Assembly (NCBI GenBank): GCA_013361065.1
Contig: JABWAK010000032.1
Location: 1 to 34,819 of the forward strand
DNA: 34,819 bases
Direction: 5' to 3'
Source: Bacteroidota bacterium
GTDB taxonomy: Bacteria > Bacteroidota > Ignavibacteria > UBA10030 > UBA8401
How positions within the stretch are numbered: the first letter of the stretch is position 1; every line of letters begins with the position of its first letter. Below are positions 6,900 through 25,260 of the stretch, piece after piece. The notes beneath the pieces were generated by a model, which saw only the letters and a program-made list of their open reading frames with translations, had not been told where the DNA came from and searched no databases. A program made the translations under genes and the position numbers.

Positions 6900-6925
6900 A
6901 TGAAAGATGGATGTAAAAAAAAGGA

Positions 6926-6961: not shown

Positions 6962-6978
6962 TCCCGTGTTTCTTTCCA

Positions 6979-7803
6979 TTAGTTCTTGTTGATCAGTTCC
7001 GACAGCTCCTTAGAGCGCCGGGTCGCGGTCGCCACTGCATCGATGAGCATGGAGCGGAGTCCGTGCGATTCGAGTTCGTGGATGGCGTTGATGGTCGTTC
7101 CGCCCGGCGTCGTCACCTGGTCCCGCAGGATGGCCGGATGCACGTTCGATTCCTTCACCAGTTTCGCGGAGCCGAGCACCGTCTGGATGGCGAGCTTCGT
7201 GGAGATGTCGCGCGGCAGTCCCATCTTCACGCCGCCGTCGATGAGCGCTTCGATCACCATATAGATGTACGCGGGTCCGCTGCCGCTGAGTCCGGTCACG
7301 GCATCCAGATGCTGTTCGCCGACCACCACCACATCGCCGACCGCTTCGAAGATCCTGATCGCAATGTCGTGCTGCGCTGTATGCACATGCGCACCGAACG
7401 CGATGGCGGTGGAGCCGAGTCCGACCGTGGAGGCGATGTTCGGCATGCAGCGGACCACCGGCACGCTGCGTCCAATGATCTTCTCCATGGAACCGGTCGT
7501 AACGCCGGCCGCGATGGAGATGACGAGCTGTCCTTTGTGGAGCGACTTGAGCATCCCGTCCAGCACACCGCGGATCACCGAGGCCTTCACGCAGAGGATG
7601 ACGATGTCCGCATGCTTCGCCGCGTCCGCATTGTTCGTGGTGACGTTGATGCCGTACTCCGCCGCAAGTCCCTGCAGCTTCTCGATGCGCGTGCCGCTGG
7701 CGTAGATCCGTTTCGCGCCGGTCAGCTTCGCACTTAGAATGCCGCGGATGAGCGCCGTTCCCATATTGCCGGCGCCGATGATAGCGATCGATTTGTTCAG
7801 CAT
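6979..7803 (-). CDS. proC: Pyrroline-5-carboxylate reductase
   Basis: This 274-residue enzyme reduces 1-pyrroline-5-carboxylate to L-proline with NAD(P)H. A Rossmann motif opens the protein (IAIIGAGNMGTALIRG). The C-terminal family signature is the segment LSGSGPAYIYMVIEAL with TTPGGTTINAIHELE. The ATG at 7801-7803 is preceded by GAGGGAG. It lies between leuD and leuB, with repeat-bearing spacers on both sides. Proline synthesis is unrelated to leucine synthesis, but both draw on glutamate, which fits gltBD in the same block. Confidence 0.95.
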   Translation of the reverse strand: MLNKSIAIIGAGNMGTALIRGILSAKLTGAKRIYASGTRIEKLQGLAAEYGINVTTNNADAAKHADIVILCVKASVIRGVLDGMLKSLHKGQLVISIAAGVTTGSMEKIIGRSVPVVRCMPNIASTVGLGSTAIAFGAHVHTAQHDIAIRIFEAVGDVVVVGEQHLDAVTGLSGSGPAYIYMVIEALIDGGVKMGLPRDISTKLAIQTVLGSAKLVKESNVHPAILRDQVTTPGGTTINAIHELESHGLRSMLIDAVATATRRSKELSELINKN

Positions 7804-7849
7804 TGCTCCCTCATGATCGTTGTCCTCCCTTCACCCTCTTCCCTCCCAT

Positions 7850-7877
7850 TTCACTTTTAACTTTTGACTTTTGACTT
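7850..7877. repeat. 7-bp tandem words between leuD and proC
   Basis: Four consecutive heptads are ttcactt, ttaactt, ttgactt and ttgactt, followed by a T-run. The same word family recurs at 14645-14672. The form resembles the heptad short tandem repeats known from filamentous cyanobacteria. Confidence 0.7.
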
Positions 7878-7881
7878 TTTT

Positions 7882-8445
7882 TTACCGTTTCAACATCCCC
7901 GACTGCCGTGCATATTCGAAGATCCCTCCGCTGCGCAGGATGTGTTCCACATCGCCGAGCGGGCTCAGCTGATATTCCTTCCCCTGTGTGCGGTTCTTCA
8001 GGATCCCTTTCGTCGTGTCCAGCTCCAGGTCATCGCCGGTGCGGACCTCTTTCACCAGCGCGTGCGTCGTTTCGAACGGGGCGATAAAGGCGCCGTCGAT
8101 GGAGTTGCGGTAGAAGATGCGCGCATAGCTCTCGGCGATCACCGCCCGGATGCCGGCCACCTGCAGGGCGAACGGTGCATGCTCACGGGACGACCCGCAG
8201 CCGAAGTTCTTGCCGCCGATGACGATGGTATACTCGCTCTGCCAGTTCCCCTCCCTGATGAACGGGATATTCCCCTGCGGCAGTCCGGATTGTTCGATCG
8301 GGACGCCGGAGAACGCGTACTTTCCGTAGTTCTTCTTCTCGTCCGGATCGTCCAGCTTGTAGACGAGGTGCGCGGCAGGGATGATCTGGTCCGTATCGAT
8401 GTCGTTGCCGAGCACGAACGCTCTTCCGGTGATGATGGCTTCCAT
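7882..8445 (-). CDS. leuD: 3-isopropylmalate dehydratase small subunit
   Basis: This 187-residue small (swivel) subunit pairs with LeuC to isomerise 2-isopropylmalate to 3-isopropylmalate. Visible motifs are GNDIDTDQIIPA near the N-terminus and NFGCGSSREHAPFAL. The open frame extends to 8511, but the ATG at 8443-8445 has an AAGGAG Shine-Dalgarno sequence 4 nt upstream and gives the family start, so I chose it. An intrinsic terminator lies between it and panD upstream, so its expression probably depends on read-through or on a promoter I cannot identify. Confidence 0.95.
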   Translation of the reverse strand: MEAIITGRAFVLGNDIDTDQIIPAAHLVYKLDDPDEKKNYGKYAFSGVPIEQSGLPQGNIPFIREGNWQSEYTIVIGGKNFGCGSSREHAPFALQVAGIRAVIAESYARIFYRNSIDGAFIAPFETTHALVKEVRTGDDLELDTTKGILKNRTQGKEYQLSPLGDVEHILRSGGIFEYARQSGMLKR

Positions 8446-8483
8446 AGTGCTCCTTGAACTGTGAAATTCCGTGCGGTAGAAAT

Positions 8484-8520
8484 AAAAAGACCTTCGGAGT
8501 GCATCCCGCATCCGAAGGTC
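8484..8520 (-). terminator. Intrinsic terminator between panD and leuD
   Basis: On the minus strand a perfect 10-bp stem (8511-8520 with 8489-8498, gaccttcgga and its complement) is extended by tgc/gca across a one-base bulge around a 5-nt loop. It is followed at once by TTTTTATTTC. This is a textbook Rho-independent terminator, placed inside an otherwise continuous gene block, 23 nt after the panD stop and about 38 nt before the leuD start. Confidence 0.85.
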
Positions 8521-8542
8521 CGATGTTGGTCACTCGTTGTAC

Positions 8543-8884
8543 TTAGAGATACTGAACGAACTTGTTGTCCTTGTCCACCAGGATCATGGTCGGCTTCACC
8601 GGGACATCGGACAGTTCGAAGCCCATGATGATGATCTCCTCCCCCTGTTTGATGAGGTGCGCGGCGGCGCCGTTCATGCAGATCACGCCGGAATTCCGCT
8701 GTCCGCGGATCACATAGGTCTCCAGCCGTGCGCCGGAGGAATTGCTCGTGACCAGCACCCGTTCCCCTTCGTGGAGCCCGGTCCGTTCGATCAGGTCCTC
8801 GTCGATGGTGATGCTGCCGACGTAATTGATGTCCGCCTCCGTGACGGTCGCTTTATGTATTTTGGAGTGAATATACCAACGCAT
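8543..8884 (-). CDS. panD: Aspartate 1-decarboxylase precursor
   Basis: This 113-residue pyruvoyl enzyme decarboxylates aspartate to beta-alanine for pantothenate/CoA. The self-processing site is the Gly23-Ser24 bond in NYVGSITID; Ser24 becomes the pyruvoyl group of the alpha chain. The segment NGAAAHLIKQGEEIIIMGF is also conserved. The length is close to the usual ~120. It sits between leuC and leuD, an unusual place. The link may be 2-ketoisovalerate, shared by valine/leucine and pantoate synthesis (inference). The transcript downstream of it meets the intrinsic terminator at 8484-8520. Confidence 0.95.
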   Translation of the reverse strand: MRWYIHSKIHKATVTEADINYVGSITIDEDLIERTGLHEGERVLVTSNSSGARLETYVIRGQRNSGVICMNGAAAHLIKQGEEIIIMGFELSDVPVKPTMILVDKDNKFVQYL

Positions 8885-8974
8885 TGCTGTTCCCGTGGTG
8901 AGAGAGATGGTCTGTTCTTCACCTGAAATATACGGGAAAAAACGATGGCGAACATCACTTTTCCGGCGCCGGCA

Positions 8975-10267
8975 TCACTCGAAGAATTCGCGGGGACTGG
9001 TGATGACACCCCGCAGCGCCGATGCGGCGACGGTGTACGGCGACGCGAGGTACACCTGCGATTTCTTCGATCCCATCCGCCCCGGGAAGTTCCGGTTGGT
9101 GGACGAGATGCAGACCTCGGCGTTGTTCAGACGGCCGAAGGTGTCGGACGGTCCGCCCAGGCACGCCGCGCAGGACGAATCGCCGATGCGGCAGCCCGCC
9201 TCTTCGAAGATCTGCATGACGGTCTTGTCCTTCACCTTCAGCGTGCGGATCTGCTTCGCCACTTCGGTCGTTGCCGGGACGATGAACGTATCGATCTTCA
9301 CCTTCTCGCCGTACATCACCTCTGCTGCCGCGATGAAATCCGAGATCTTGCCGCCGGTGCAGCTGCCGATGTACGCACGGTCCAGACGGGTGCCGGCCAC
9401 TTCGCTCACCGCCGCTTTGTTGTCCGGCGAGTGGGGTTTCGCGACGGTCGGTTCGATCTCCCGTACATTGAAGCGGTGGACGGAATGGTACTTCGCATCG
9501 TCATCATTATAGAAGCATTCGAACTGTTTGTTCGTGCGGGCGCGGACGTAGTCGGTCGTGGTCTTGTCCGGCGCGCAGATGCCGTTCTTCCCTCCCGCTT
9601 CGATCACCATGTTGCAGAGGGTCATCCGGTCCTCCATCGTCATCGCATCGACGGTGGTACCGCAGAAATCCATCGCGCGGTACGTGGCGCCGTCCACACC
9701 GATCCTGCCGATCACCGCCAGGATGAGGTCCTTCGCCATGAGATACTTCGGCATCTCTCCGTCGAAGATGAACTTCATCGTCTCCGGGACCTTCACCCAC
9801 AGTTTCCCGGTGCCGAGGACGAACGCTGCATCCGTATTGCCGATGCCGGTGGCGAACTCGCCGAATGCGCCGGCGGTACAGGTGTGCGAATCGGTACCGA
9901 AGAGCACTTCACCGGGACGCGTGAATCCCTCCTCCGGCATCGCAACGTGGCAGACACCTTTGTAGCGGTCGGTGCCGACATCGAAGTAATGCGGAAGGTC
10001 CTGCTCCTTCGCAAAATCGCGGAGGATCTGGATGTTGCGGTTGGCATGCATGTCCTTCGTGAAGATGTAATGGTCCGGGATGACGACGAGCTTCTCCTTG
10101 TCCCACACCTTGGCATCCTGTCCGAACTCCCGTTTGAAAATGCCGAACGTTCCCGGACCGCACACATCGTGCGTCATCAGAACGTCCACATCGATCCAGA
10201 CGTTGTCACCGGGGCTCACCGATGTTCGGCCGGAATGTTGTGCGAGGATTTTTTCTGTTATGGTCAT
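8975..10267 (-). CDS. leuC: 3-isopropylmalate dehydratase large subunit
   Basis: This 430-residue aconitase-family subunit carries the [4Fe-4S] cluster. Its cysteine ligands are visible in YIGSCTGGK and DSSCAACLGG, and the active-site segment GTDSHTCTAGAFGEFATGIG is present. The length (~420-430) matches the archaeal/HacA-like branch rather than the ~466-residue enterobacterial LeuC. It follows leuA by 14 bp and precedes panD by 90 bp; the partner leuD lies beyond panD. The start is ATG at 10265-10267. Confidence 0.95.
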   Translation of the reverse strand: MTITEKILAQHSGRTSVSPGDNVWIDVDVLMTHDVCGPGTFGIFKREFGQDAKVWDKEKLVVIPDHYIFTKDMHANRNIQILRDFAKEQDLPHYFDVGTDRYKGVCHVAMPEEGFTRPGEVLFGTDSHTCTAGAFGEFATGIGNTDAAFVLGTGKLWVKVPETMKFIFDGEMPKYLMAKDLILAVIGRIGVDGATYRAMDFCGTTVDAMTMEDRMTLCNMVIEAGGKNGICAPDKTTTDYVRARTNKQFECFYNDDDAKYHSVHRFNVREIEPTVAKPHSPDNKAAVSEVAGTRLDRAYIGSCTGGKISDFIAAAEVMYGEKVKIDTFIVPATTEVAKQIRTLKVKDKTVMQIFEEAGCRIGDSSCAACLGGPSDTFGRLNNAEVCISSTNRNFPGRMGSKKSQVYLASPYTVAASALRGVITSPREFFE

Positions 10268-10281
10268 GATTGTCCTTTTAT

Positions 10282-11829
10282 TTACACTCCGACGTTCTCG
10301 CCGGACGATTGCTGTTTACGGAACCGTGCAGAGACCGCATGGTTGATGGCATTCACATATGCTTTCACGCTCCCGGTGATGACATCCGTGCTCGCCGAGC
10401 GGCCGTTGAACACATAGCCATCGATGGCGATCTTCACGAACACCTCACCAATGGCATCCTGTCCCCAGGAAACGGACTTGATAGAATAATCGAGCAGTTC
10501 GGTCTTGATGCCGGTGATACGGCCGATGGCGCGGTAGGCAGCGTCGACGGGACCGTCGCCGGTGGAGGAATCCTGGAAGAACTCCCCTCCCTTTCTCAAT
10601 CCGACTGTCGCCGTCGGCACTACATTCACGCCGCTGGTCACCTGGAGTGTTTCGATCTTATAGGTCTCCTCCGGGGACGAGAGCTCGTCCTGCAGGATGG
10701 CGACCAGGTCGTCATCGAACACCTGTTTCTTCTCATCCGCCAATGCGGAGAAGAGCGTGTAGGCCTTCTCCAGCTCTTCCGTGGAGAGCTGATAGCCGAG
10801 CTCCTCGTACCGCTGCTTCAGTGCATGGCGGCCCGAATGCTTGCCGAGCACCAATGTGCTGTGCTTGATGCCGACGCTCGCCGGGGTCATGATCTCATAG
10901 GTGAGCGGATTCTTCAGCATCCCGTCCTGATGGATGCCTGCCTCGTGGGCGAAGGCATTATCTCCGACGATCGCCTTGTTCCGCTGGACATGCATTCCGG
11001 TCAATGAAATCAGCAGTTTGCTGGACTTGTAGATCTCCTCGGTGACGATATTCGTGGCTGCGTTGAGTACTTCTCCGCGTGTGCGGATCGCCATGGCGAT
11101 CTCCTCCAGCGATGCATTGCCGGCCCGTTCGCCGATGCCGTTCACCGTGCACTCGATCTGCCGCGCACCGTTCATCACGCCGGCCAGGGAATTGGCGACC
11201 GCCAGTCCCAGATCATCGTGGCAATGGACGCTCAGCACGGCATTCGCGATGTTCGGTACCCGCTGCGTCAGCGTGCGGATGATGGCGCCGTACTCCTCCG
11301 GCACGGAATAGCCGACCGTATCGGGAATATTGATGACCGTTGCTCCTTCGGCGATGGCCGCTTCCACGATGCGGCAGAGGAAGTCGATATCGCTCCGCGA
11401 CGCATCCTCGCAGGAGAACTCAACATCCTGGCAGTACGACTTCGCACGGCGCACGGCGGCGACCGCCTGGTCCAGCACCTCCTCGCGGGACTTCTTGAGC
11501 TTGTATTTCAGATGGATGTCCGACGTGGCGATGAACGTATGAATGCGCGGCTGTGCGGCGTACTGGAGCGCTTCCCATGCGCGATCGATGTCATTGAAGT
11601 TCGCGCGGCACAATCCCGCCACCGACACGGTGCGGATCTGCTTCGCGATCTCCTTCACCGATTCGAAATCCCCTTCGCTCGCGATCGGGAATCCCGCTTC
11701 GATCACATCCACCTGCAGACGCTCCAGCTGTCGCGCCATGCGGATCTTCTCGTTGAAGTTCATGCTGGCGCCCGGGGATTGTTCACCGTCGCGCAGCGTC
11801 GTATCAAAAATGAATATTCGGTTGTTCAT
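10282..11829 (-). CDS. leuA: 2-isopropylmalate synthase
   Basis: This 515-residue enzyme condenses 2-ketoisovalerate with acetyl-CoA, the committed step to leucine. The TIM-barrel catalytic domain opens with [14 protein letters not shown] and contains the metal-binding [12 protein letters not shown] and [14 protein letters not shown]. The C-terminal domain (about 390-510) is the LeuA dimer domain that normally binds leucine as a feedback inhibitor (for example [14 protein letters not shown]). It is paralogous to cimA two genes upstream, from which it differs by the SPG motif after LRDGEQ. The ATG is at 11827-11829; the spacer upstream contains heptad repeats. Confidence 0.95.
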
Positions 11830-11890
11830 AAACGCCTTTACAATAGAGAGAAGCTATGTTCAGCGTAAGGTTTCTTGTGTCACTGGTTGT

Positions 11891-11925
11891 ACCTAATACC
11901 TAACACCTAATGCCTAGTACCTTAT
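11891..11925. repeat. Five 7-bp tandem words between aroF and leuA
   Basis: Five consecutive heptads fill the middle of the spacer: acctaat, acctaac, acctaat, gcctagt and accttat. The word differs from the TTGACTT family at 7850 and 14645. No hairpin or promoter is obvious in it. Confidence 0.75.
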
Positions 11926-11935
11926 CTACTCTTTT

Positions 11936-12949
11936 TTACAAGTGTTTCTCTTCCAGCGGCAGATACTTCCGTATCTCGTCCATCAGTTTGGAGAACTGTT
12001 CCGGCATCAGGGATTGTGCGCCGTCCGAGAATGCCTTCTCCGGATTCGGATGCACTTCGATGATGAGTCCGTCCGCACCGACCGGCACCGCGGCTTTCGC
12101 CATCGGCGTGATGAGACTGCGGATGCCGGTGCCGTGGCTCGGATCGACGATCACCGGCAGATGGGACATCTCCTTCAGCGCCGGCACGGCGGTCAGATCG
12201 AACGTGTTGCGCGTGTAATCCTCGAACGTGCGGATGCCGCGCTCGCAGAGGACGACATCGTAATTCCCCTGGGACATCACATACTCGGCGGACATCAGCA
12301 GCTCCTTATAGGTGCTGGACATGCCGCGCTTCAGCAGCACGGGACGCTTCGTCTTGCCGACCTCCTTCAAGAGAGCGAAGTTCTGCATGTTGCGTGCGCC
12401 GATCTGCAGCATGTCCGAATATTTCGCGACGAGCGCCACATCACCCGGCGAGATCACTTCCGTTGCGAACGGCAGACCGGTCTTCTCGCGCGCTTCGGCG
12501 AGCAGTTTCAGTCCCTCTTCTTCCAGTCCCTGGAACGAGTACGGCGAGGTACGCGGTTTGAATGCACCGCCGCGGAGCATCTGTGCACCCGCTTTCTTCA
12601 CCAGTTCCGCACTGAGGATGATCTGGTCCCGCGACTCCACGGAGCAGGGTCCCGCGATCACCACGAACTGGTCCCCGCCGATCTGCAGGTCCCCCACCTT
12701 CACGATGGAACGCGGTTTGGTCTCCTTGCTCGCCAGCTTGAACGGTTTCAGGATCGGAACGACATTCTCCACATACTCGAGCGATTCCAGCTGCTGCAGC
12801 TGTGCCTTGCCCCGTTCATCGCCGACACAGGCAACGACGGTCCGCTCCTCGCCGACGATGGGATGCGGTTTGAAGCCGTATTCCTTCACGCGCTCCAGGA
12901 TGTGGTCGTATTCTTCTTTCTTGGTTCCGGGTTTCAGGACGATGATCAT
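11936..12949 (-). CDS. aroF: DAHP synthase, type I-beta with N-terminal regulatory domain
   Basis: This 337-residue 3-deoxy-7-phosphoheptulonate synthase joins phosphoenolpyruvate and erythrose 4-phosphate, the first shikimate-pathway step. Residues 1-~70 form a ferredoxin-like (ACT-like) regulatory domain as in the Thermotoga maritima enzyme. The catalytic barrel follows, with [27 protein letters not shown] and [11 protein letters not shown]. Such fused domains usually bind tyrosine or phenylalanine. It is the only aromatic-pathway gene in the block. It starts with ATG at 12947-12949 behind an AGG, 10 nt after the cimA stop, so it is coupled to cimA. Confidence 0.95.
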
Positions 12950-12959
12950 GGTGCGCCTA

Positions 12960-14531
12960 CTATGCTTTCTTCTTTAAAAGGTGATAGGTAATGGAGTCGA
13001 CCAGCGCTTTCCAGCTGGCATCGACCACATCGGACGAGACGCCGACGGTGTTCCAGGATGATGTTCCGTTCTTTGTTTCGATCAGCACGCGCACTTTCGC
13101 CGCTGTGGCGTTCTGCGAATCGAGCACGCGGACCTTATAATCGGTCAATTGGATCTCTTTCAGCTCGGGATAGAAGCGTTCCAGGGCCTTCCGAAGGGCT
13201 GTATCCATTGCGTTCACGGGACCGTTCCCCTCAGCGGCGGTGATCTCGGTCTCGTCGCCCACCCGCACTTTGATCATCGCCTCGCTCCGTGCATCGCTGT
13301 CGTTGGAATCCTTGTGGATGCTGATCTTGAACCGCTCCAGCTCGAACAGTTTCTTCATTTCGCCGGTATGTTTCTTCACCAGCAGTTCGAACGATGCTTC
13401 GGCGTCCTCGAAGTAGTATCCGAAATGCTCCATCGCCTTAAGCTCTTCCACCACCGCCTGTGCGGCCGGCGAGCGGTCATCGATCTTCAGGCCCAGCTCC
13501 TCTGCTTTATAGAGCACGTTGCTCCGTCCGGACAGGTCGGAGACAAGCACACGGCGGACGTTCCCGATGAGTTCCGGTTCGATATGCTCGTAGGTCTTCG
13601 GGGTCTTCATCACCGCGCTGACATGCACGCCGCCCTTGTGCGCGAACGCGCTCTCACCGACGAACGCCATGTTCTTGCGGTGCTTCAGGTTGGCAAGCTC
13701 GCTCACATAGCGGGAAAGTTCGGTCAGTTTCTTGAGCTGTTCCGCTCCGACCGTCTCTGCGTCCATTTTTAATGCAAGATTCGGGATGATGGAGCAGAGG
13801 TTCGCATTGCCGCACCGCTCGCCGTACCCGTTGATGGTCCCCTGCACATGCACCGCTCCCTGCTGCACCGCGGCCAGCGCATTCGCAACTCCCAGCTCGC
13901 AGTCGTTGTGCGTGTGGATGCCGACCGGTACCGACAGCTGCTGCTTCACGGCGGCGACCATCGCGGAGACCTCCCACGGCATCGTGCCGCCGTTGGTGTC
14001 ACAGAGGACGATCACATCCGCACCGGAAGTTTGCGCGGCCAGGAGTGTCTTCACGGCATACGCAGCATCGGACTTGTATCCGTCGAAGAAGTGTTCCGCA
14101 TCGTACACTACCTCCTTGCCGTTCTTCTTCAGATAGGCAACGGAGTCGGCGATGATCTCCAGATTCTCCTCTTCGGTGATCTGCAGCGCTTCCTTCACAT
14201 GGAGCAGCCACGTCTTGCCGAAGATGGTCACCACCGGCGTCTGCGCATCGATGAGCGCTTTGATGTTCGCATCTTCCTCAACGCGGTTCTTCGCGCGGCG
14301 GGTGCTGCCGAAGGCGGCGATCTTCGCATGCGTGAAGCGTACGCTCCGCGCCTTCTCGAAGAATTCCATATCCTTCGGATTGGAACCGGGCCACCCTCCT
14401 TCGATGTAATCGATGCCGAACGCATCAAGCCGCTTTGCGATCTTGATCTTGTCCTCGGCGGAGAAGGAGACTTCCTCTCCCTGCGTACCGTCCCGCAGCG
14501 TAGTATCGTATGTGAAGATCTTTGTATTCAT
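12960..14531 (-). CDS. cimA: Citramalate synthase
   Basis: This 523-residue LeuA-family enzyme condenses pyruvate and acetyl-CoA to (R)-citramalate and gives isoleucine synthesis a threonine-independent entry. Its [18 protein letters not shown] start and [14 protein letters not shown] distinguish it from Leu[17 protein letters not shown] and [15 protein letters not shown] are the metal and active-site segments. A C-terminal regulatory domain is present ([17 protein letters not shown]). A GTG at 14534 directly precedes the ATG at 14531; I chose the ATG. No Shine-Dalgarno sequence is seen. It lies between ilvC and aroF. LeuCD and LeuB commonly process citramalate further to 2-ketobutyrate. Confidence 0.93.
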
Positions 14532-14545
14532 CACAGTATAGTATT

Positions 14546-14673
14546 TGAGTCGGTGAGTATGTGAGTGTGTGAGAAATAAATCTCAACGACTCAATGACTC
14601 ACTTACTCCACAACTTCTCAACGCTCTCTTGTATTTCTCCACGTTAACTTTTCACTTTTGACTTTCGACTTTG
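14546..14673. repeat. ilvC-cimA spacer with two octad tracts and one heptad tract
   Basis: Three tracts share this spacer. At 14546-14573 the octads are tgagtcgg, tgagtatg, tgagtgtg and tgag. At 14582-14621 they are ctcaacga, ctcaatga, ctcactta, ctccacaa and cttctcaa, whose complement carries the same gag/tgag half-word, so the two tracts can fold back on each other as an imperfect hairpin. At 14645-14672 the heptads are taacttt, tcacttt, tgacttt and cgacttt, the word family of 7850-7877. No gene is seen here. Confidence 0.7.
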
Positions 14674-14676
14674 CTT

Positions 14677-15732
14677 CTATTTCTTCCAGTTCTCCGGGCG
14701 CAAGCCTCGCACGGCCTCTCCCGCTTTCCACATCTCGGAGTTCTTCCACTCATCCAGCTCCTTCTGCAGCGTGGCGCGGTAATCCGGCGCACTGGTGGAA
14801 TCGAGGACGCGTTTCGTCTCCACGCCGTACTGCACATCGCGGTAGAGCAGTTCGAAGAGCGGACGGTTCGCCGTTTCGAATTTCTTCGCCCAGTCCAGCG
14901 CACCGCGCTGTGCGGTGACGGAACAGGCGGCGAACATCCAGTCCATGCCGTACTTGCCGACGAGCGGATAGAGACTCTGCGTCGCTTCCTCCACCGTTTC
15001 GTTGAACGCTTCGCTCGGCGAATGTCCCATCTGGCGCAGCACATCGTACTGTGCTTTCATCAGTCCTGCGATCGCTCCCATCAGCACGCCGCGCTCGCCG
15101 GTCAGATCGGAGAGCACTTCCTTCTCGAACGTGGTCGGGAACAGGTATCCGGAACCGATGGCGATACCGCAGGCGATGGCACGCTCACGCGCTTTCCCGG
15201 TAGCATCCTGGAAGACCGCAAAACTGGCATTGATGCCGCTTCCTGCCAGGAAATTGCTCCGGACGGTCCGTCCGCTTCCCTTTGGGGCGACCAGCACAAC
15301 GTCCACATCGGCGGGCGGAACGACATTCGTCTGGTCTTTGAAGACCACCGAGAATCCATGCGAGAAATAGAGCGCCTGCCCCTTTTTCAGGTTCTTTTTG
15401 ACCGTTTCCCACTGCTGTTTCTGCCCGGAATCGGAGAGCAGATACTGCACGATGGTCGCCTTGCGGATCGCTTCTTCGATGTCCGGAAAGAGGTTCTTCC
15501 CTTCCACCCAGCCATCGCGCACCGCGTCGTTCCACCCCTGTCCCCCTTTGCGCTGCCCGACGATCACATTAATGCCGTTGTCGCGCATGTTCAGGGATTG
15601 CCCGTACCCCTGCGGACCGTAGCCGATGATGGCCACTACTTCGTCCTTCAGGAATGCTTTTGCTTTCTCCAGCGGATATTCTTCGCGGGTGACGACCTCT
15701 TCAACGGTGCCGCCAAAATTGATCATTGCCAT
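14677..15732 (-). CDS. ilvC: Ketol-acid reductoisomerase
   Basis: This 351-residue Mg- and NAD(P)H-dependent enzyme isomerises and reduces acetolactate or acetohydroxybutyrate in valine, leucine and isoleucine synthesis. The Rossmann loop AIIGYGPQGYGQSLNMRDNG opens it, followed by YFSHGF, APKGSGRTVRS and EAFNETVEEATQSLYPL. The sequence style (GQRKGGQGW, DGWVEGKNLF, KYGMDWM) matches the Bacteroides and yeast Ilv5-like branch rather than E. coli or Bacillus IlvC. AAGGA lies 8 nt before the ATG at 15730-15732. It follows the DUF2141 pair by 14 bp. Confidence 0.95.
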   Translation of the reverse strand: MAMINFGGTVEEVVTREEYPLEKAKAFLKDEVVAIIGYGPQGYGQSLNMRDNGINVIVGQRKGGQGWNDAVRDGWVEGKNLFPDIEEAIRKATIVQYLLSDSGQKQQWETVKKNLKKGQALYFSHGFSVVFKDQTNVVPPADVDVVLVAPKGSGRTVRSNFLAGSGINASFAVFQDATGKARERAIACGIAIGSGYLFPTTFEKEVLSDLTGERGVLMGAIAGLMKAQYDVLRQMGHSPSEAFNETVEEATQSLYPLVGKYGMDWMFAACSVTAQRGALDWAKKFETANRPLFELLYRDVQYGVETKRVLDSTSAPDYRATLQKELDEWKNSEMWKAGEAVRGLRPENWKK

Positions 15733-15746
15733 GGTGCTGTTCCTTC

Positions 15747-16181
15747 TTAATAATGAATGATGATCGGTATCGATTTCGTTGCTGCCGGGAACGTGAACTT
15801 CGCATCGTCGAACGACGGCGGACCGAACGAGCCTTTTGCATCATTCGAAGCGCCGTAGCCTTCCTTCGGCATTCCGTACCAGCTGCGGTCCATCTTGTCG
15901 TTCATGTTCTCGTCATGATAGACCGCCACGCCGTACGTCCCGTCCGGAACATCGTCGAACGTCACCTCTATCGCCGCCCCGGTGACCGGCACTTTCTTCG
16001 CGCGGAACGCCTTATCCCGTTTCGTCGGGAAATCATCGGCATTGTTATAGACGAAGACCATCACCTGTCCTTTCGCTTCACGGAGACCGTTGATGGAAAT
16101 GGTCATGCTCTGCTTCCCCTGAGCGGGGGACGACTGCAGGGAGAGCGAGAGGATGATGATGAGCAATGCTGTTCGTTTCAT
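15747..16181 (-). CDS. Secreted DUF2141 protein, copy 2
   Basis: This 144-residue protein begins with a signal peptide (MKRTALLIIILSLSLQSSPA, cleavage near residue 20). The mature part has the DUF2141 pattern: GQVMVFVYNNADDFP, VPDGTYGVAVYHDENMNDKMD and a GMPKEGYGASND-like loop. The ATG at 16179-16181 has GAAAGG about 8 nt upstream, so the longer open frame to 16286 is rejected. The family is found mostly in Bacteroidota and Proteobacteria; no biochemical function is known to me. It lies between gltD and ilvC, next to a diverged paralogue, and is the only exported product in the block. Confidence 0.88.
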   Translation of the reverse strand: MKRTALLIIILSLSLQSSPAQGKQSMTISINGLREAKGQVMVFVYNNADDFPTKRDKAFRAKKVPVTGAAIEVTFDDVPDGTYGVAVYHDENMNDKMDRSWYGMPKEGYGASNDAKGSFGPPSFDDAKFTFPAATKSIPIIIHY

Positions 16182-16206
16182 ACACGGCCTTTCTTCGTTC
16201 CTTGGA

Positions 16207-16650
16207 CTATGGATGCATGTCGATGCGGATCGTGTCGCGCTTTTCGGAGACGATGAACCGCGCCTCGTCGAAACTCGGCGGCACAACGCCGGTCACGTTG
16301 TTGGAGATACCGTACTCCTCTTCCGGCAGACCGAGCCAGTCGGTGTCCATCACATTGTTCGAATTCTCATCATGCACCACCGCGATGGCATATGGTCCGG
16401 GCGGCAGCCCGTCCAGACTGATGATGATCGAATTGGAGGTCACTGTTGCCGTCTTCCAGCGGAACGCTTTCTCCGGATGTGTCGGGAACCCTTCCGGTGC
16501 ATTGAACAGACTCAGCAGCACCTGTCCGATCGGCGCCTTGATGCCGTTCAGCTGCACAACGATGCTGCTGCCGCTCTTCTGCTGGGCAGAGAGCATCGGC
16601 ACGGCGAAGAACAGTGCGACCCACACAAACTGGTTCAGAGATTTCATCAT
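16207..16650 (-). CDS. Secreted DUF2141 protein, copy 1
   Basis: This 147-residue protein has a signal peptide (hydrophobic FVWVALFFAVPMLSA, cleavage near residue 22). The DUF2141 domain shows GQVLLSLFNAPEGFP, LPPGPYAIAVVHDENSNNVMD and GLPEEEYGISNNV. It is clearly a paralogue of the next gene, with similar length and the same motifs but many substitutions, so the duplication is old. Two ATGs in a row (16648-16650 and 16645-16647) stand behind AAGGA; the second has the better spacing. It begins 9 bp after gltD, so it is probably in the same transcript. The function is unknown. Confidence 0.88.
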   Translation of the reverse strand: MMKSLNQFVWVALFFAVPMLSAQQKSGSSIVVQLNGIKAPIGQVLLSLFNAPEGFPTHPEKAFRWKTATVTSNSIIISLDGLPPGPYAIAVVHDENSNNVMDTDWLGLPEEEYGISNNVTGVVPPSFDEARFIVSEKRDTIRIDMHP

Positions 16651-16659: not shown

Positions 16660-18081
16660 TTACGGAAGCGTGGAAACGCCCATCAGGAATTTGTCGACAC
16701 TCTTCGCCGCTTTGCGTCCTTCGCTGATGGCCCACACGACCAGCGACTGGCCGCGGCGCATATCACCGGCAGCGAAGATGCCGGGAATGGAACTCATGTA
16801 CTCGCGGTCCGTCGAGACGTTCCCGCGCGCATCGAGCGCCACACCGAGCTCATCCAGCAATCCGTTCTTGCTCGGTCCGTTGAATCCCATCGCCAGCAGC
16901 ACCAGATCGGCATCCATCGTGAACTCCGAACCGGTCACCGGCGTGAAGTGCGGCGGCGGTCCGACCCGAACGCCGTGCAGTTTCGTCACCCGGCCTTCCG
17001 CATCGCCTTCAAAGCGTGTTGTCGTCATCGCCCATTCCCGCACCCCTCCTTCTTCATGCGAACTCTCCGTCCGCAGCTGGAGCGGCCACTGGGGCCACGG
17101 TGTCGATGCGGCCCGTTCCAGTGGCGGTTTCGGCATGATCTCGAACTGGTGGACCGACGCTGCGTTCTGACGCAGACTGGTGCCGAGACAATCCGCACCG
17201 GTGTCGCCGCCGCCGATGATCACTACGCGCTTGCCGGTGGCAACGATATCCTTCGCCGCATCGGTCTTGTCCCCTGCATTGCGGCGGTTCTGCTGCGGCA
17301 GGAACTCCATTGCGAAGTGGATCCCCTTCAGTTCGCGGCCGGGAATAGAAAGATCGCGCGGCGATTCGGCACCGCCGCACAGCAGCACAGCATCATACGA
17401 ACGGCGCAGTTCCTCCACGGAGATGGTCACACCGACATTCGTATTAGTGGTGAAGACGATCCCTTCCGCCTGCAGCTGTGCGATACGGCGGTCCAGCAGA
17501 TGTTTCTCGAATTTGAAATCGGGGATGCCGTAACGGAGCAGTCCGCCCACACGGTCGTTCTTCTCGTACACCGTCACGCGGTGTCCGGCGCGGTTCAGCT
17601 GCTGCGCCGCCGCAAGTCCGCTGGGACCGGAACCGATCACGGCGACCGTCTTGCCGCTCCGCTTCTTCGGCGGTTCCGGCTTGATCCAGCCGTTGGCGAA
17701 CGCATGCTCGATGATCGTCCGCTCCACCACTTTGATGGTGACCGGCGGTTCGTTGATCCCCAGGACGCAGGCTGCTTCACACGGGGCGGGACAGACATGT
17801 CCGGTGAATTCCGGGAAATTGTTGGTGGAATGCAGCACACGGACCGCCTCCTCCCACCGGTCCCGGTAGACGAGGTCGTTCCAGTGCGGGATGACGTTCG
17901 TGACCGGACAGCCGGTCTGGCAGAACGGAACGCCGCAATCCATGCAGCGCGCCCCCTGCGTCTTCACCTTCTCTTCGGTGAAAGGCTGGTACACATCGCG
18001 CCAGTCGTTCAACCGGTCGGCAACGGGTCGGCGCTGCGGCACTTCCCGCGTATATTCGAGGAATCCTGTCGGCTTACCCAT
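16660..18081 (-). CDS. gltD: Glutamate synthase small subunit
   Basis: This 473-residue FAD/NAD(P)H subunit passes electrons through iron-sulfur clusters to the large subunit. The N-terminal cysteine clusters are visible in [15 protein letters not shown] and [12 protein letters not shown]. The FAD site is [17 protein letters not shown] (about 146-162), the NAD(P)H site contains [12 protein letters not shown] (about 296-307), and [17 protein letters not shown] is the C-terminal FAD motif. AGGAGG stands before the ATG at 18079-18081, and the start overlaps the gltB end by 8 bp. It supplies glutamate, the amino donor for the transaminations that end the pathways encoded around it. Confidence 0.96.
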
Positions 18082-21000
18082 GCACCACCTCCTGTTGTTT
18101 GCGTGCGGCGTTCAGGACGCGCTTATAATCATGCGGGAACACTTTGACGAACCTGGTCCGGAACTCGGCCCACCCGTTCAGGATCCTGTCGCCCCTTCTG
18201 CTGCCGGTGTATGCCACATGTTTCCCGATGAGTCCTTTCACGAGGATCTCATCCTCCGGAGTCAGCGGGTCCAGATCGACGATGGAGCGGTTGCACATCT
18301 TCGCGGCGAATTCGCCGTCCTCATCCAGCACGTATGCGAAACCGCCGGACATGCCCGCGGCGAAGTTCTTGCCGGTTCTGCCGAGGACGACCACGATGCC
18401 GTTCGTCATGTACTCGCAGCCGTTCGCACCGACCGATTCCACGACAACCGTCGCTCCGGAATTGCGCACCGCGAACCGTTCGCCCCCTTTGCCGGAGAAG
18501 AACGCCTCGCCGCTCGTAGCGCCGTAGAGCACCACGTTGCCGACAATGGAGTTGTCCTCCGGAACGAAGGTGGAGTTCTTCGGCGGCGCGATGATGATGG
18601 TGCCGCCGGAGAGTCCTTTACCGACGTAATCGTTCGCATCCCCTTCCAGCTTCAGCGTGACCCCTTTGGAGAGGAACGCACCGAAGCTCTGTCCGGCAGA
18701 ACCGGTGAAGTTGATGGTGATGGTGTTCTCCGGCAGTCCTGCCGCGCCGTAGTATTTGGCGATGCGTCCGCTCAGCAGCGCGCCGACCGTGCGGTGCACG
18801 TTGCGGATGGGAAGCGACAGTTCGACCGGCTTCTTCTCCTCGAGCGCCGGCTTCGTCTGTTCCAGCAATTGATAGTCCAGCGCTTCGTTCAGACCATGGT
18901 CCTGCGAGATGGTGCAGCGCCGTCCGATGCGCAGCGGCACCGTCGGCTGATGCAGGATGGCGGAGAGATCGATCCCCTTCGCCTTCCAGTGGTCCACATC
19001 CTTCCGCTGCTGCAGCATGTCCACGCGGCCGATCATCTCGTCGATGGTCCGGAAGCCGAGCTTCGCCATGATCTCGCGGACCTCATCCGCGATGAAGAAG
19101 AAGAAGTTGATCACATGCTCCGGCGTCCCGGCGAACTTCTTCCGCAGCTCCGCATCCTGTGTGGCAATGCCGACCGGACAGGTGTTCAGGTGGCACTTGC
19201 GCATCATGATGCAGCCCATGGCGATGAGCGGTGTGGTGGCGAACCCGAACTCCTCCGCACCGAGCAATGCGGCGATCACCACATCACGGCCGGTCTGCAG
19301 CTTACCGTCCGTCTGCAGCCGCACACGGCTCCGCAGGTCGTTCATCACCAGCACCTGCTGCGTCTCGGCCAGACCGAGCTCCCACGGCACGCCGGCATGT
19401 TTGATGGACGTGAGCGGCGATGCACCGGTGCCGCCGTTGTCGCCGCTGATCAGGATCATATCCGCATGCGCCTTCGCCACGCCGGCAGCGACCGTGCCGA
19501 CGCCGACCTCGGAGACCAATTTCACCGAGATGCGCGCGATGGGATTGACGTTCTTCAGGTCGTAGATGAGCTGCGCCAGATCCTCGATGGAATAGATATC
19601 GTGATGCGGCGGCGGCGAAATGAGTCCTACGCCGGCGATGGAATGCCGCGTCTTCGCGATGACGGAATCGACCTTGAATCCCGGCAGCTGTCCCCCCTCG
19701 CCCGGTTTCGCTCCCTGCGCGATCTTGATCTGGATCTCGTCCGCATTCACCAGGTAGTTCGCCGTCACGCCGAAGCGTCCGGATGCCACCTGTTTGATGG
19801 CGCTGCGGCGCAGGTCGCCGTTCGTGTCGCTGCGGAACCGTTCCTCGTCCTCCCCTCCCTCTCCGGTGTTGGATTTTCCGCCGATGCGGTTCATCGCCAC
19901 GGCGATCGTCTCATGCGCTTCTTTACTGATGGAACCGAAGGACATCGCACCGGTGACGAACCGCTTCACGATCTGCTTCGCCGGCTCCACATCCTCGATG
20001 TGGACGCTCCGCGTTCCCTCTTTGAACTCCATCAGTCCGCGCAGTGTGAAGAACTCGCGGTTCTGGTCGTTCATCACCGCGGAGAACTCCTTGAACGTCT
20101 TGTAGTCCCGTTTGCGGACCGACTGCTGCAACTTGGTGATGGTCGTCGGATTGAGCAGATGACGCTCACCGTTGATGCGGAAATGATAGTTCCCGCCCAG
20201 ATCGAGATCGGTGTCCGCATTGGAGAACGGCTGGAAGGCGAAGGCATGCTTCCGGCGCGCCTCCTCCACCAGCACTTCCAATCCGATCCCTTCGATGCGG
20301 GAGGAAGTGCCGTTGAAGTACTTCTCCACCACTGCTTTGTTCAATCCGATCACCTCGAAGATCTGCGCGCCACGGTAGCTCTGCAGCGTGGAGATACCCA
20401 TTTTGGAGAAGACCTTCAGCAGTCCTTTGCCGACCGCCTTCTTATAATTCTTAATGGCGTATTCTGCCGTAACATCCTTCGAAAGCCGCCCTTTGTTCGC
20501 CAGGTCCTCGATCGTCTCGATCGCCAGGTACGGGTTCACCGCGCTGGCGCCGTATCCGATCAGCAGACAGTAATGCATCACCTCGCGCGGCTCGCCCGAT
20601 TCCACCACCAGCGCCACCTGGGTGCGGGTCTTCTCGCGCACCAGATGATTGTGCACCGCCGTCAATGCCAGCAGGCTCGGGATCGGCGCATATTCCTCAT
20701 CCGGACCGCGGTCCGAGAGGATAAGAATAGAGTAACCGGACTCGATGGCGAGCGATGCGCGGCGGCAGAGTCCGTCCAGCGCCCGTTCCAGTTCCTGCTC
20801 TCCCCCGTTCACCCGGAACAGCATCGGCAGTGTGGTGGAGAGAAAATCACCCTGCGACACGCGGCGGAGCTTCTCCAGTTCCATGTTCGTCAGGATGGGA
20901 TGCTGCAGTTTCAATGTATGACAATGCTGCGGTGTCTCTTCCAGGATGTTCCGCTCCGTACCGATGTAGCTGGTCAGGGACATCACGAACTCCTCGCGGA

Positions 21001-22606
21001 TCGGATCGATGGGAGGATTCGTCACCTGCGCGAAGAGCTGCTTGAAATAGGCGAAGAGCGGCTGCGGCCTGTCCGAGAGACAGGCGAGCGGCGTGTCGGT
21101 CCCCATGGACCCGACCGGCTCCTCCCCGTTCACCGCCATCGGTGTGACGATCATCCGTACATCCTCATCGCTGTACCCGAACATCCGTTGCCGCTGGATG
21201 ATGTCCTTCTCGCTCAGCACATGCGCGCGCGGCGGTTCCGCCAGCGATTCGAGCGTGATCTGGTTCTCTTTGATCCAGCTGGCGTACGGCTTGCGGCTGC
21301 TCAGCTGTGCTTTGATCTCCTCGTCGAACACCACACGTTTCTGCTCCAGGTCTACCAGCAGCATCTTCCCCGGCTCCAGCCTCCCTTTCGTCTTCACCCG
21401 CTCCGGTTCGATGGGCAGCACGCCGGTCTCGGACGCCATGATGAGCAGTCCGTCGTGCGTCTCCACATAGCGTGCGGGACGGAGTCCGTTCCGGTCCAGC
21501 GTCGCGCCGATCACTTTGCCGTCCGTGAATGCTACGGCGGCAGGACCGTCCCACGGCTCCATCAGCGATGCGTGGTATTCGTAGAACGCCTTCTTCTCCG
21601 CGGACATCGTGGCATCCATGCTCCACGCTTCCGGGATGAGCATGGACATCACATGCGGCAGACTCCGTCCGGAATGATAGAGCAGCTCCACCGCGTTGTC
21701 CAGTGCGGCGGAATCGCTCCCGTCCGGCTGGATGATCGGGAATAATTTCTTCAGGTCGTCGCCGAACAGGTCGGACCGCAGTACGGATTGCCGTGCGTGC
21801 ATCCAGATCACATTCCCCCGCATCGTGTTGATCTCGCCGTTGTGGCTCACGAAACGGAACGGATGCGCCAGCTGCCAGTTCGGCATCGTGTTCGTGGAGA
21901 AGCGCTGATGGACCAGACAGAGCGCGCTCTCGGTGTCGGTGTCGGACAGTTCACTGTAGAACTGTTCGATCTGCGGCGCCAGCAGGAGTCCTTTATAGAT
22001 AATGATGCGGGACGAGAGCGACGGGATGTAGAAGAAATCCTTCTCCTTGATCTCCGAAGCGTACAGCTCGGCTTCGGCGCGCTTCCGTACCACGTACAAT
22101 TTCCGGTCGAACTCCTCGCGCGTCATCCCTTCCGCCCGGCGGATGAAGATCTGCTCTATATAAGGCTGCGAGGCGCGCGCGATGCGCCCGATGGCATCCG
22201 CACCGACGGGAGCATCCCTCCACCCCAACACGCTCAGTCCCTCCTCCCGCACGATGCGCTCCAGGATCCCCTCGCACACCAGTCTCGACGCCTGGTTCAC
22301 CGGCAGGAATACCATCCCGACGCCGTACTCCCCCTCCTCCGGCAGTGCGATACCGAGACTGCGGCATTCCTTCACGAAGAACTTATGCGGGATCTGGATG
22401 GTGATCCCCGCCCCGTCCCCCGTCTCCGGATCGCACCCGCAGGCGCCCCGGTGTGTCAGATTGATGAGGATCTCGATCCCCTTCGTGATCACATCGTGGG
22501 AGCGTCCGCCGTTGATGTTCACGATGAACCCGATGCCGCAGGCATCATGCTCATGGCGCGGATCGTACAGCGGGAAGTTCTCCTGTGTCTGGAACGGTTC
22601 TTTCAT
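18074..22606 (-). CDS. gltB: Glutamate synthase large subunit
   Basis: This 1510-residue subunit makes two glutamates from glutamine and 2-oxoglutarate. A 22-residue propeptide precedes the nucleophile Cys23 in [10 protein letters not shown], the first residue of the mature class II glutamine amidotransferase domain. The central and FMN-binding synthase domains follow ([33 protein letters not shown]). The 3Fe-4S cysteines are near residue 1135 (CHLNTCPVG), and the C-terminal beta-helix is glycine-rich. The length equals the bacterial norm. Its start overlaps the ilvN stop by one base (TGATG), and its end overlaps gltD. Several long open frames on the opposite strand are shadows of this gene. 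Confidence 0.97.
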
Positions 22607-23139
22607 CAGACCTCTCCTACAAATTCACGCTTCAATGCCACACGCCCGGTACGCGCGATCTCTTTGATGTGGAACGGCTTCAGCATCTTGATGATGGCAT
22701 CCACCTTCTGACCGCTGCCGGTCGCTTCCACGGTCAGCGTTTTATGACTGATATCGATGATCTTCCCCTGGAAGATCTCCACGATCTGCATGATCTCCGG
22801 CCGGTTCTCGGCCGTGGTCGCGATCTTGATGAGCGCCAGCTCGCGCTCCATGAAGCTCTCATAGGTCAGATCCACCACTTTCAGCGTGTCGATCAGCTTG
22901 TTCAGCTGCTTGATGATCTGCTCGATGATGGCATCATCCCCTTTCGTCACCAGGGTCATGCGGGAGACGGTCGCATCCTCCGTCGGACCGACGGTGATGC
23001 TCTCCAGATTGTACCCCTTGGCGGAGAACATGCCGGCCACGCGGTTCAGGGCGCCGAACTTGTTCTCCAGCAGGACGGAGATCGTGTGTTTGTGGACGGC
23101 CTGGTCGGCCGGTGTCTCAGCTGCGGTTGCCATGGTCAT
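22606..23139 (-). CDS. ilvN: Acetolactate synthase small (regulatory) subunit
   Basis: This 177-residue regulatory subunit of acetohydroxyacid synthase binds valine and activates IlvB. An N-terminal ACT domain (about 18-92; [21 protein letters not shown]) is followed by the AHAS_small C-terminal domain ([26 protein letters not shown]). The ATG at 23137-23139 overlaps the ilvB stop in ATGA, but AAAGG lies directly against it. A second ATG at 23131-23133 has a 6-nt spacing and may be the true start (175 residues). The stop overlaps the gltB start. Confidence 0.95.
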
Positions 23140-24902
23140 CCTTTCGCGATGGTCACCAGTTCAAGGTCGCTCTCCTGCTCGCCGGTCTGCGGCGCGGAGC
23201 TGTCGTTGGGAATGTCGATGATCTCATGGTACGTCTGCCCTGCCGGGATCATCGGGTACACATTGTCCTCCTTCACCGTTTTGAACTCCACCAGCACCGG
23301 TCCCTGCGTGGCGAGCATCTGTTGCACCACCCCTTCCACCTCGTGCGTCTCCGTGGCGCGCAGTCCGGGGATGCCGTACGCCTCGGCGAGCTTCACGTAG
23401 TCCGGACCGAACATCTCCACGTGCGAGTACCGTTTGCGCCAGAACAGCTCCTGCCACTGCCGCACCATGCCGAGGTAGCCGTTGTTCAGGATGATGATCT
23501 TCACCGGCACGTTGTGCTCGCGGATCGTTGCCAGCTCCTGCAGGTTCATCTGGAACCCGCCGTCGCCGCTCATGGAGATCACCGGCATATCCCTCCGTGC
23601 GAACGCCGCACCCATCGATGCCGGCAGCGAGAATCCCATCGTGCCGAGTCCGCCGCTGGTCAGGTGCGTGCGCGGATGCACGTACCGGAAGAACTGCGCC
23701 ATCCACATCTGGTGCTGGCCCACATCGCTCACCATCACCGCGTTCCCTCCGGTGGCATCGGAGACCGCCCGGATCACATGCTGCATTCGGATGTACTTCC
23801 CGTTGCGGTACCGCAGCGGATGTTCCTCTTTCCAGGTGCGGATCGTCTGGCGCCAGTCCTTCGTGTCCAGTGCCGTCACCTGCGGCAGCAGCTGCTGCAA
23901 TACCTTCTTCACGTCGCCGACGATCGGCACATCCACCTTCACGTTCTTGCTGATGTTGGAGGGATCGATGTCGATGTGGATCTTCTTCGCCTCCGGCGCG
24001 AACGCATCCGTCCTGCCGGTCACCCGGTCATCGAACCGCGCGCCGACCGCAATGAGCAAGTCGCAGTAATTGACGGCGGTGTTGGAATACCACGTGCCGT
24101 GCATGCCGAGCATCCCCATGGAGAGCTCGTCCGTCTCCGGGAAGGCGCCGAGTCCGTGCAGCGTGGTGGTCACCGGGATGTTGGTCTTCCGCGCGAACGC
24201 CGTCAGTTCCTCCGCCGCATTGGCGAGGATCGTTCCGCCGCCCACATAGAGCACCGGACGCTTCGCCTTGGCGATCAGGGCGACCGCTTTGTCCAGCTGT
24301 TTCTGATTCCCCTCGGCGTGCGGGATGTACGAGCGCATCTTCACCGACTTCGGGTAGGAGAAGACCGTCTTCATCGCCATCACATCCTTCGGGAGGTCGA
24401 CGAGCACGGGACCGGGACGGCCTGTGGTCGCCACATAGAATGCTTCTTTGATCGTCGCTGCGAGTTCGTTCACATCGCGAACGAGATAGTTGTGCTTGGT
24501 CACCGGACGCGTGATGCCGACGATATCCGCTTCCTGGAACGCATCGTTGCCGATCAGCTTCAGCGCCACCTGTCCCGTGAAGACGACGATCGGAACGGAA
24601 TCCATGTATGCATCGGCGATACCGGTGACGGTGTTGGTGGCGCCGGGACCGGAGGTGACGAGGGCGACGCCGCACTTGCCGCTCGCCTTGGCGTACCCTT
24701 CGGCGGCATGCACGGCGCCTTGTTCGTGGCGGGTGAGGATATGTTTGATGTCCGAGATGTCGTGCAGCGCATCATAGATGCCGATCACGGCGCCGCCGGG
24801 ATATCCGAAGACGACATCGACATGCTCTTCGATCAGGGAACGGACGAAGATCTCAGCGCCGGTCATCGGACGCTGCGGGGAAGAGGGGGATTGTTGGGTC
24901 AT
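23136..24902 (-). CDS. ilvB: Acetolactate synthase large (catalytic) subunit
   Basis: This 588-residue thiamine diphosphate enzyme condenses pyruvate with pyruvate or 2-ketobutyrate, the first common step of branched-chain synthesis. It shows VVFGYPGGAVIGIYDAL with the catalytic Glu in RHEQGAVHAAEGYA, the FAD/central domain (LGMHGTWYSNTAV), and the ThDP motif MSGDGGFQMN...IILNNGYLGMVRQW. A GTG at 24903-24905 precedes the ATG at 24900-24902; AGG six bases before the ATG favours the ATG. It is the first gene of the long block and follows the putative leader-peptide attenuator at 24942-25186. Confidence 0.96.
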   Translation of the reverse strand: MTQQSPSSPQRPMTGAEIFVRSLIEEHVDVVFGYPGGAVIGIYDALHDISDIKHILTRHEQGAVHAAEGYAKASGKCGVALVTSGPGATNTVTGIADAYMDSVPIVVFTGQVALKLIGNDAFQEADIVGITRPVTKHNYLVRDVNELAATIKEAFYVATTGRPGPVLVDLPKDVMAMKTVFSYPKSVKMRSYIPHAEGNQKQLDKAVALIAKAKRPVLYVGGGTILANAAEELTAFARKTNIPVTTTLHGLGAFPETDELSMGMLGMHGTWYSNTAVNYCDLLIAVGARFDDRVTGRTDAFAPEAKKIHIDIDPSNISKNVKVDVPIVGDVKKVLQQLLPQVTALDTKDWRQTIRTWKEEHPLRYRNGKYIRMQHVIRAVSDATGGNAVMVSDVGQHQMWMAQFFRYVHPRTHLTSGGLGTMGFSLPASMGAAFARRDMPVISMSGDGGFQMNLQELATIREHNVPVKIIILNNGYLGMVRQWQELFWRKRYSHVEMFGPDYVKLAEAYGIPGLRATETHEVEGVVQQMLATQGPVLVEFKTVKEDNVYPMIPAGQTYHEIIDIPNDSSAPQTGEQESDLELVTIAKG

Positions 24903-24941
24903 CACACACCTGCCGGGAAAAGAGTGAACAGCAATGCGCAG

Positions 24942-25030
24942 CCTCTGCTTCAGAGGTTACATCCTGATCATCGTCTCACGTGGTGCGTGTAGAGTGGAAT
25001 GTGAAATGTCGTGTTGGGAGTAACCTCTGC
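24942..25030 (-). promoter_or_regulatory. Putative ilvB attenuator: competing RNA hairpins
   Basis: In transcript order, segment A (25030-25020, GCAGAGGUUAC) lies 6 nt after the leader-peptide stop. Segment B (24960-24951, GUAACCUCUG) is a perfect 10-bp complement of A. Segment C (24947-24942, CAGAGG) pairs with the 3' part of B (CCUCUG) around a 3-nt AAG loop. A:B and B:C exclude each other, as antiterminator and terminator do in classical amino acid attenuators. No U-run follows C directly, so the B:C hairpin is not a clear intrinsic terminator; Rho or a translational effect on ilvB is possible. The logic is inferred from sequence. Confidence 0.55.
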
Positions 25031-25036: not shown

Positions 25037-25186
25037 TTAGCCGATAATAGTTAGGCGTAGAATCGCAAAAGTAATCCCCAACAGAATGATAATGCCGCTC
25101 ACCGGAAGGAGGGACACAGGTACAGCGACGGCGCGCACGCGGGTGCGTTTCGGAGAGCTCGCTGTATGGTTGTCGTATGCGGACAT
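25037..25186 (-). CDS. Putative branched-chain leader peptide (ilv attenuator)
   Basis: This 49-codon ORF (ATG 25184-25186, TAA 25037-25039) lies upstream of ilvB. From residue 17 on, 18 of 32 codons are Val, Leu or Ile; the end reads GIIILLGITFAILRLTIIG. Valine codons come first and Ile/Leu later, as expected if starvation for any of the three stalls a ribosome. The stop is 6 nt before segment A of the hairpins, so a stalled ribosome would leave A free and a finishing one would cover it. The start has no good Shine-Dalgarno sequence. A small single-pass membrane protein is the alternative, since basic residues precede one hydrophobic stretch. Confidence 0.6.
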   Translation of the reverse strand: MSAYDNHTASSPKRTRVRAVAVPVSLLPVSGIIILLGITFAILRLTIIG

Positions 25187-25227
25187 TCTGTCTGGCGGTT
25201 ACGTTCGAAGTGCAACTGGGTTACACA

Positions 25228-25260
25228 CTTATAAGATACAACTATTCATTCCGTTGTCAA
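25228..25260 (-). promoter_or_regulatory. Candidate promoter of the ilvB block
   Basis: On the minus strand a perfect TTGACA (25255-25260) is followed after 16 bp by TATCTT (25233-25238), with TATAAG (25228-25233) as an alternative -10 at longer spacing. It points toward the leader peptide, whose ATG is about 45 bp downstream. The rest of the 25187-25298 gap shows no gene; the mnmE promoter must also lie here, but I cannot place it. Confidence 0.5.

Follow-up and report, generated by a model that had tools for sequence, protein, structure and literature searches.

A probable branched-chain amino acid attenuator ahead of a conserved 19-gene biosynthetic block in Ignavibacteria

A 49-codon ORF upstream of ilvB is very probably (probability about 0.88) the leader peptide of a ribosome-mediated attenuator that would sense charged Ile, Leu and Val tRNAs and control an operon extending from ilvB to thrB. 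Because this peptide recurs, with its set of mutually exclusive RNA pairings, ahead of branched-chain genes across Ignavibacteria and also in Balneolaceae, the leader is very probably a real starvation sensor. The DNA analyzed here, referred to as the window, is a stretch of 34,819 nucleotides that forms one contig of a 3.8-Mb genome. The close IlvB relatives that have names come from Ignavibacteriae MAGs.

The proposed mechanism involves competing pairings among segments 1 to 4 of the leader RNA. If branched-chain tRNAs are short, the ribosome would stall on segment 1, leaving segment 2 free to pair with segment 3, and the operon would be expressed. If they are plentiful, the ribosome would reach the stop codon and cover segment 2, or depart so that a 1:2 helix forms. 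Segment 3 would then pair with segment 4 and expression would be blocked. For the window's clade, the predicted 3:4 pairing is a short hairpin followed by T-rich sequence immediately preceding ilvB, and the two most likely form a weak terminator. The block would be translational in sister families, where segment 3 would instead pair with the first gene's Shine-Dalgarno region. We infer the translation of the leader, the stalling of the ribosome for want of charged branched-chain tRNA and the direction of control from the sequence.

The leader and its pairing segments in the window

The features of the locus are as follows, in the order of transcription.

25233-25260, minus strand: promoter-like site, TTGACA, 16 nt, TATCTT, with 10 of 12 matches
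25208-25230, minus strand: predicted 5' hairpin of the leader RNA, AAGTGTGTAACCCAGTTGCACTT, its sequence kept across much of the family
25037-25186, minus strand: candidate leader peptide ORF, 49 codons plus TAA, with an Ile/Leu/Val cluster adjoining the stop and rare ATT and CTA codons
25071-25081, minus strand: segment 1, leader codons LLGIT, pairing with segment 2 (cognate versus non-cognate test)
25014-25029, minus strand: segment 2, CAGAGGTTACTCCCAA, partner of segment 1 or segment 3
24951-24960, minus strand: segment 3, GTAACCTCTG, partner of segment 2 or segment 4
24942-24947, minus strand: segment 4, CAGAGG, in the local 3:4 hairpin
24911-24941, minus strand: T-rich stretch from the 3:4 hairpin to the ilvB Shine-Dalgarno sequence, degenerate in the window
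24900-24913, minus strand: ilvB ribosome-binding site GCAGG and ATG (24902-24900), the start position being conserved in relatives
22606-24905, minus strand: ilvB (by identity to the acetolactate synthase loci of relatives) and ilvN (by NCBIfam)
16660-22606, minus strand: gltB and gltD (glutamate synthase)
1841-16650, minus strand: remaining genes of the block, from two DUF2141 genes to thrB, in conserved gene order

The ORF, recovered where the preliminary description had placed it, runs from the ATG at 25186 to the TAA at 25037 on the minus strand and its translation is MSAYDNHTASSPKRTRVRAVAVPVSLLPVSGIIILLGITFAILRLTIIG. The 18 branched-chain codons claimed for its last 33 were confirmed; Ile, Leu and Val make up 18 of the 33 C-terminal residues. 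No other of the 533 stop-ended 33-codon frames, counted over the two strands of the window, is as rich; the runner-up has 13. The leader also uses codons that are rare in the operon genes. CTA accounts for 0.4% of the Leu codons in the operon genes and for 2 of the 6 in the leader; for ATT among the Ile codons the values are 7.1% and 5 of 7. This is a short ORF with codons for the putatively regulated amino acids clustered near the putative switch, and genes for these amino acids follow it.

The promoter-like TTGACA noticed earlier upstream of the ORF starts at 25260, and the TATCTT that follows after the 16-nt spacer ends at 25233. In 16 family members both TTGAC and TATCTT are retained, and the distance between them hardly varies.

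Both inverted repeats of the preliminary description stand as given. They correspond to the pairing of CAGAGGTTAC (25029-25020) with GTAACCTCTG (24960-24951), here called 2:3, and of CCTCTG with CAGAGG (24947-24942), here called 3:4. An additional helix, 1:2, was absent from that description. It joins 25081-25071 to 25024-25014 in competition with 2:3, and the leader codons can thus compete for segment 2. The helices are mutually exclusive and would link the leader codons to the outcome of expression. Taken alone the window's 3:4 hairpin does not surpass shuffled sequences (p 0.34). Its support comes from relatives; an equivalent hairpin is present in genera g1, g7 and g9 and is weaker in g4.

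Conservation of the leader and covariation of its helices

The ilvB gene of 16 genomes of the window's family (f1) is preceded by a leader of 48-52 codons. The C-terminal half of these peptides keeps the pattern ..GIIILLGITFAILRLTIIG and the N-terminal half drifts. Across leaders the Ile/Leu/Val fraction is 0.5-0.6 in the last 25 codons and falls to 0.02 near the start. A strong ilvB was found in 29 of the 60 closest genomes searched, and 28 of these 29 carry the leader; at the lone exception, G007, the locus is cut by a contig end. The other 31 genomes had no leader that survived inspection.

An RNA model finds the leader in families f3, f5 and f6 of the same order, mostly directly ahead of ilvD, the position it also has in G011 of f1. 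Its matches extend to further families of the class and to family f43, taken to be Balneolaceae, where the leader precedes ilvB, including that of the cultured Fodinibius roseus DSM 21986. Five genomes (G056, G058, G087, G093 and G094) have two leaders each, one before ilvD and one before gltB. For most of the matches outside the order the leader, the helix and the downstream gene were read; antisense duplicates of true matches were ignored. Many of the genomes compared are MAGs. Weak matches in G014, G020, G022, G028, G033, G057, G005:C104 and G070:C124 were inspected and judged to be chance. The regions upstream of ilvB in the available Chlorobi, Kryptonia and Calditrichia loci contained no leader.

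A comparison of relatives had been proposed as the check on the preliminary description. Dozens of genomes retain the ORF, with its Ile/Leu/Val cluster by the stop, as well as the competing helices. Relatives without the ORF or the pairing, or conservation as a membrane protein without codon clustering, would have spoken against the leader; what was found is retention, with helices that covary.

The cognate 2:3 duplexes have a mean energy of -21.0 kcal/mol, compared with -15.7 kcal/mol when genera are permuted, and none of 20000 permutations reaches the observed value. The same test gives 87 of 20000 within f1 and 0 of 20000 in the other families. For helix 1:2 the counts are 0 of 20000 across all genera, 94 within f1 and 1240 in the other families, where the putative 1:2 pairing is weakly supported. 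The permutations use genera as units, but related genera are not independent, and the within-family tests are therefore the more conservative ones.

The 2:3 helix also covaries. In a 35-sequence alignment of all families it comprises 13 pairs, of which 90.5% are standard and 9 have changed on both sides. The covariation in this alignment is 0.305, against 0.111 (sd 0.012) for shuffles, none of 500 reaching it, and at most 0.104 for slid partners; in a 38-sequence alignment of the order it is 0.140 against 0.088 (sd 0.010). The register of alignment A5 was set after viewing the sequences. Per-column covariation of 2:3 within f1 alone is not significant. The helix is nearly invariant there, which makes the f1-only test uninformative, and the support comes from the wider comparisons.

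Output step and extent of control

Outside f1 there is cognate-specific complementarity (48 of 20000 permutations) between segment 3 and the first gene's ribosome-binding site. For example, TTCGCCT matches AGGCGAA just ahead of the ATG at L151, and TTCACCT matches AGGTGAA at L155. Pairing of segment 3 to the ribosome-binding site reaches about -15 kcal/mol in two of the three members of f1 genus g2. In f1 as a group, the window included, segment 3 has no such complementarity (14215 of 20000). In the window's clade (g1, g4, g7 and g9 of f1) segment 3 meets the nearby segment 4, and a T-rich stretch reaches up to the ilvB Shine-Dalgarno sequence. This stretch is present in 10 of 10 clade members, with a T fraction of 0.37-0.74 that lies in the top 0.06-3.5% of the member's own locus. 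The window has the T fraction of 0.37 (top 3.5%), and relatives go up to 0.74 (top 0.06%). The stretch mostly begins some bases past the hairpin. It is of clear U-run type in L009 and L166, which resemble ordinary intrinsic terminators, and degenerate in the window. The missing U-run and poor Shine-Dalgarno sequence, named earlier as weak points, were rightly named for the window, where the T-run is degenerate; relatives do have one.

The output step thus appears to vary among lineages, with Shine-Dalgarno occlusion predicted in sister families and g2, and a hairpin followed by a T-rich stretch in the window's clade. The likeliest output in the window would be weak termination. The preliminary description had invoked transcription attenuation of the enterobacterial type; ribosome-mediated attenuation is strongly supported, but its transcriptional form is less certain, since segment 3 of the sister families would pair instead with the ribosome-binding site. 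There is some possibility, which is the less probable one, that the same sensor has a translational output in the window too. RNA pairing near the Shine-Dalgarno sequence would then block ilvB initiation without premature termination, and expression of the downstream genes would fall by polarity. The occlusion seen outside f1 and its strength in g2 point in this direction, as does a predicted window hairpin, GCGCATTGCTG/CGGCAGGTGTG, that covers the ilvB Shine-Dalgarno sequence. However, segment 3 in f1 as a group lacks the match to the ribosome-binding site, and f1 has instead the T-rich stretch typical of terminators.

The block of 19 genes described earlier is real and conserved. Its order is ilvB, ilvN, gltB, gltD, two DUF2141 genes, ilvC, cimA, DAHP synthase, leuA, leuC, panD, leuD, proC, leuB, aspartate kinase, a small conserved ORF (4522-4157), thrC and thrB. 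The order is kept in the family members with long contigs and in the sister family f6 (G031), where ilvD is placed first; G306, from another order, has its ilv, leu and glt genes clustered but arranged differently. That one transcript covers all 19 genes is suggested by the spacing, by the conservation of gene order and by the absence of a second promoter-like site. It is doubtful that the leader governs only ilvBN and the nearby genes, leaving leu, pro, thr and DAHP synthase to promoters of their own. Gaps of 142, 106, 90, 78 and 66 nt inside the block would leave room for such promoters, and pattern scans cover this lineage's promoters poorly. Against this, most neighbors overlap or sit at most 45 nt apart in an order shared by the family and f6, and the strict pattern TTG[AC][CA]-N17-22-TANNTT, which may miss other promoter types, has a single match on the operon strand of the window, ahead of the leader. 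The reading of the ORF as a small membrane protein gene, rich in Ile, Leu and Val by chance, is very improbable. The C-terminal half would make a plausible membrane segment. However, a Pfam search of the ORF gave no match, and this together with the nucleotide-level pairing led to rejection of that reading. The N-terminal half is not conserved and the rare codons are retained; base conservation runs beyond the stop, into bases that pair with the leader codons; and true matches of the RNA model almost always lie immediately upstream of ilvB, ilvD or gltB.

The leader peptide of an attenuator remains the preferred assignment. Control of the glutamate genes, part of the earlier proposal, gains support in that gltBD lies inside the conserved operon and gltB has its own copy of the leader in the five genomes with two leaders. 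There is an even chance that the attenuator is an old one common to Ignavibacteria and Balneolaceae. Its sensing half (leader peptide, 1:2 and 2:3) would have been kept while the output was swapped between ribosome-binding-site occlusion and termination. In the course of operon rearrangement the switch would have moved among ilvD, ilvB and gltB, and glutamate synthase would thereby have become wired to branched-chain tRNA charging.

Several other observations concern the operon. The gltB genes that occupy the same slot in G016, G009, G018 and G050 have an identity of only about 50% and may have been replaced in situ. The two DUF2141 ORFs (15747-16650) overlap within the amino acid operon; one is retained in G018, and the other relatives examined are without them. 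On the plus strand (144-1858) a histidine kinase (Pfam His_kinase, 144-1160) and an ORF (1103-1858) converge on the operon end. The ilvD gene is not part of the operon in the window's genome and genus (G000:C280:3864-4820; G003:C23:360324-361280), and the leader there fronts ilvB.

Relation to known leader switches

The enterobacterial ilvGMEDA, ilvBN, leu and trp operons use ribosome-mediated transcription attenuators. The present leader resembles them in its richness in the regulated amino acids and in the exclusive helices around the stop codon, and its rare regulatory codons recall the enterobacterial leu leader. It differs in belonging to another phylum, in the length of the leaders (43 codons and more), in an output that would often be Shine-Dalgarno occlusion, in a U-run that is degenerate or displaced, and in a 19-gene target that includes glutamate synthase. 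The erm leaders are translational attenuators for which an antibiotic is the signal. A stalled ribosome frees a paired Shine-Dalgarno sequence in those leaders, as it would in f5 and f6, whereas the signal here would be uncharged branched-chain tRNA.

Attenuators with an ilvB leader peptide were predicted in Actinobacteria (PMC1262725), and experimental work exists on the Corynebacterium ilvB-II motif (PMC10272879). These also have a branched-chain-rich uORF before ilvB and putative attenuation. The present leader has another sequence, a longer peptide and another lineage, it also precedes ilvD and gltB, and its loci have no Rfam match. The ilvB-OMG and Leptospira ilvB motifs (discussed in PMC10272879) are likewise RNA motifs with a branched-chain-rich uORF before ilvB; they are set apart by the Rfam non-match, with the qualification that the Rfam library may not include both. 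Scans with Rfam 15 gave no match in the window (to E 5) or in 20 relatives (to E 1), and a known riboswitch, T-box or ilvB motif was rejected for that reason.

A search of open-access literature found no report of such a switch in Ignavibacteria, Chlorobi or Bacteroidetes, and a branched-chain leader switch seems not to have been described previously in Ignavibacteria or Balneolaceae. If the assignment is correct, peptide-based amino acid attenuation would extend to lineages of the Bacteroidota/Chlorobiota group for which no report was found, nitrogen assimilation (gltBD) would be tied to branched-chain supply, and the loci would provide a natural set of variants that combine one sensor with different outputs. 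The switch is open to testing because the cultured species F. roseus carries the leader.

Some loci have additional elements near the leader. In L226 and L229 (family f24) a second small ORF (61 and 57 codons) lies between the leader and ilvB. It starts like ilvD (VRSD/VRSN) and has an Ile/Leu-rich end, ..NIIIILSIIILSI; ilvD itself is located elsewhere in these genomes. Two leader peptides may act in tandem there. A hairpin of the form TCTGA...TCAGAGG surrounds the Shine-Dalgarno sequence of the first gene in L224, L226, L229, L231 and L232 (f14, f24 and f27), and a GTATATC-like motif follows segment 3 in these three families and in Balneolaceae. A similar leader is present in a Bacteroidetes MAG (UBA11400; L050, 62-179). 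Its segment 3, TTGACCT, exactly matches AGGTCAA just before the ATG of a short ORF, and ilvB is about 190 nt further on.
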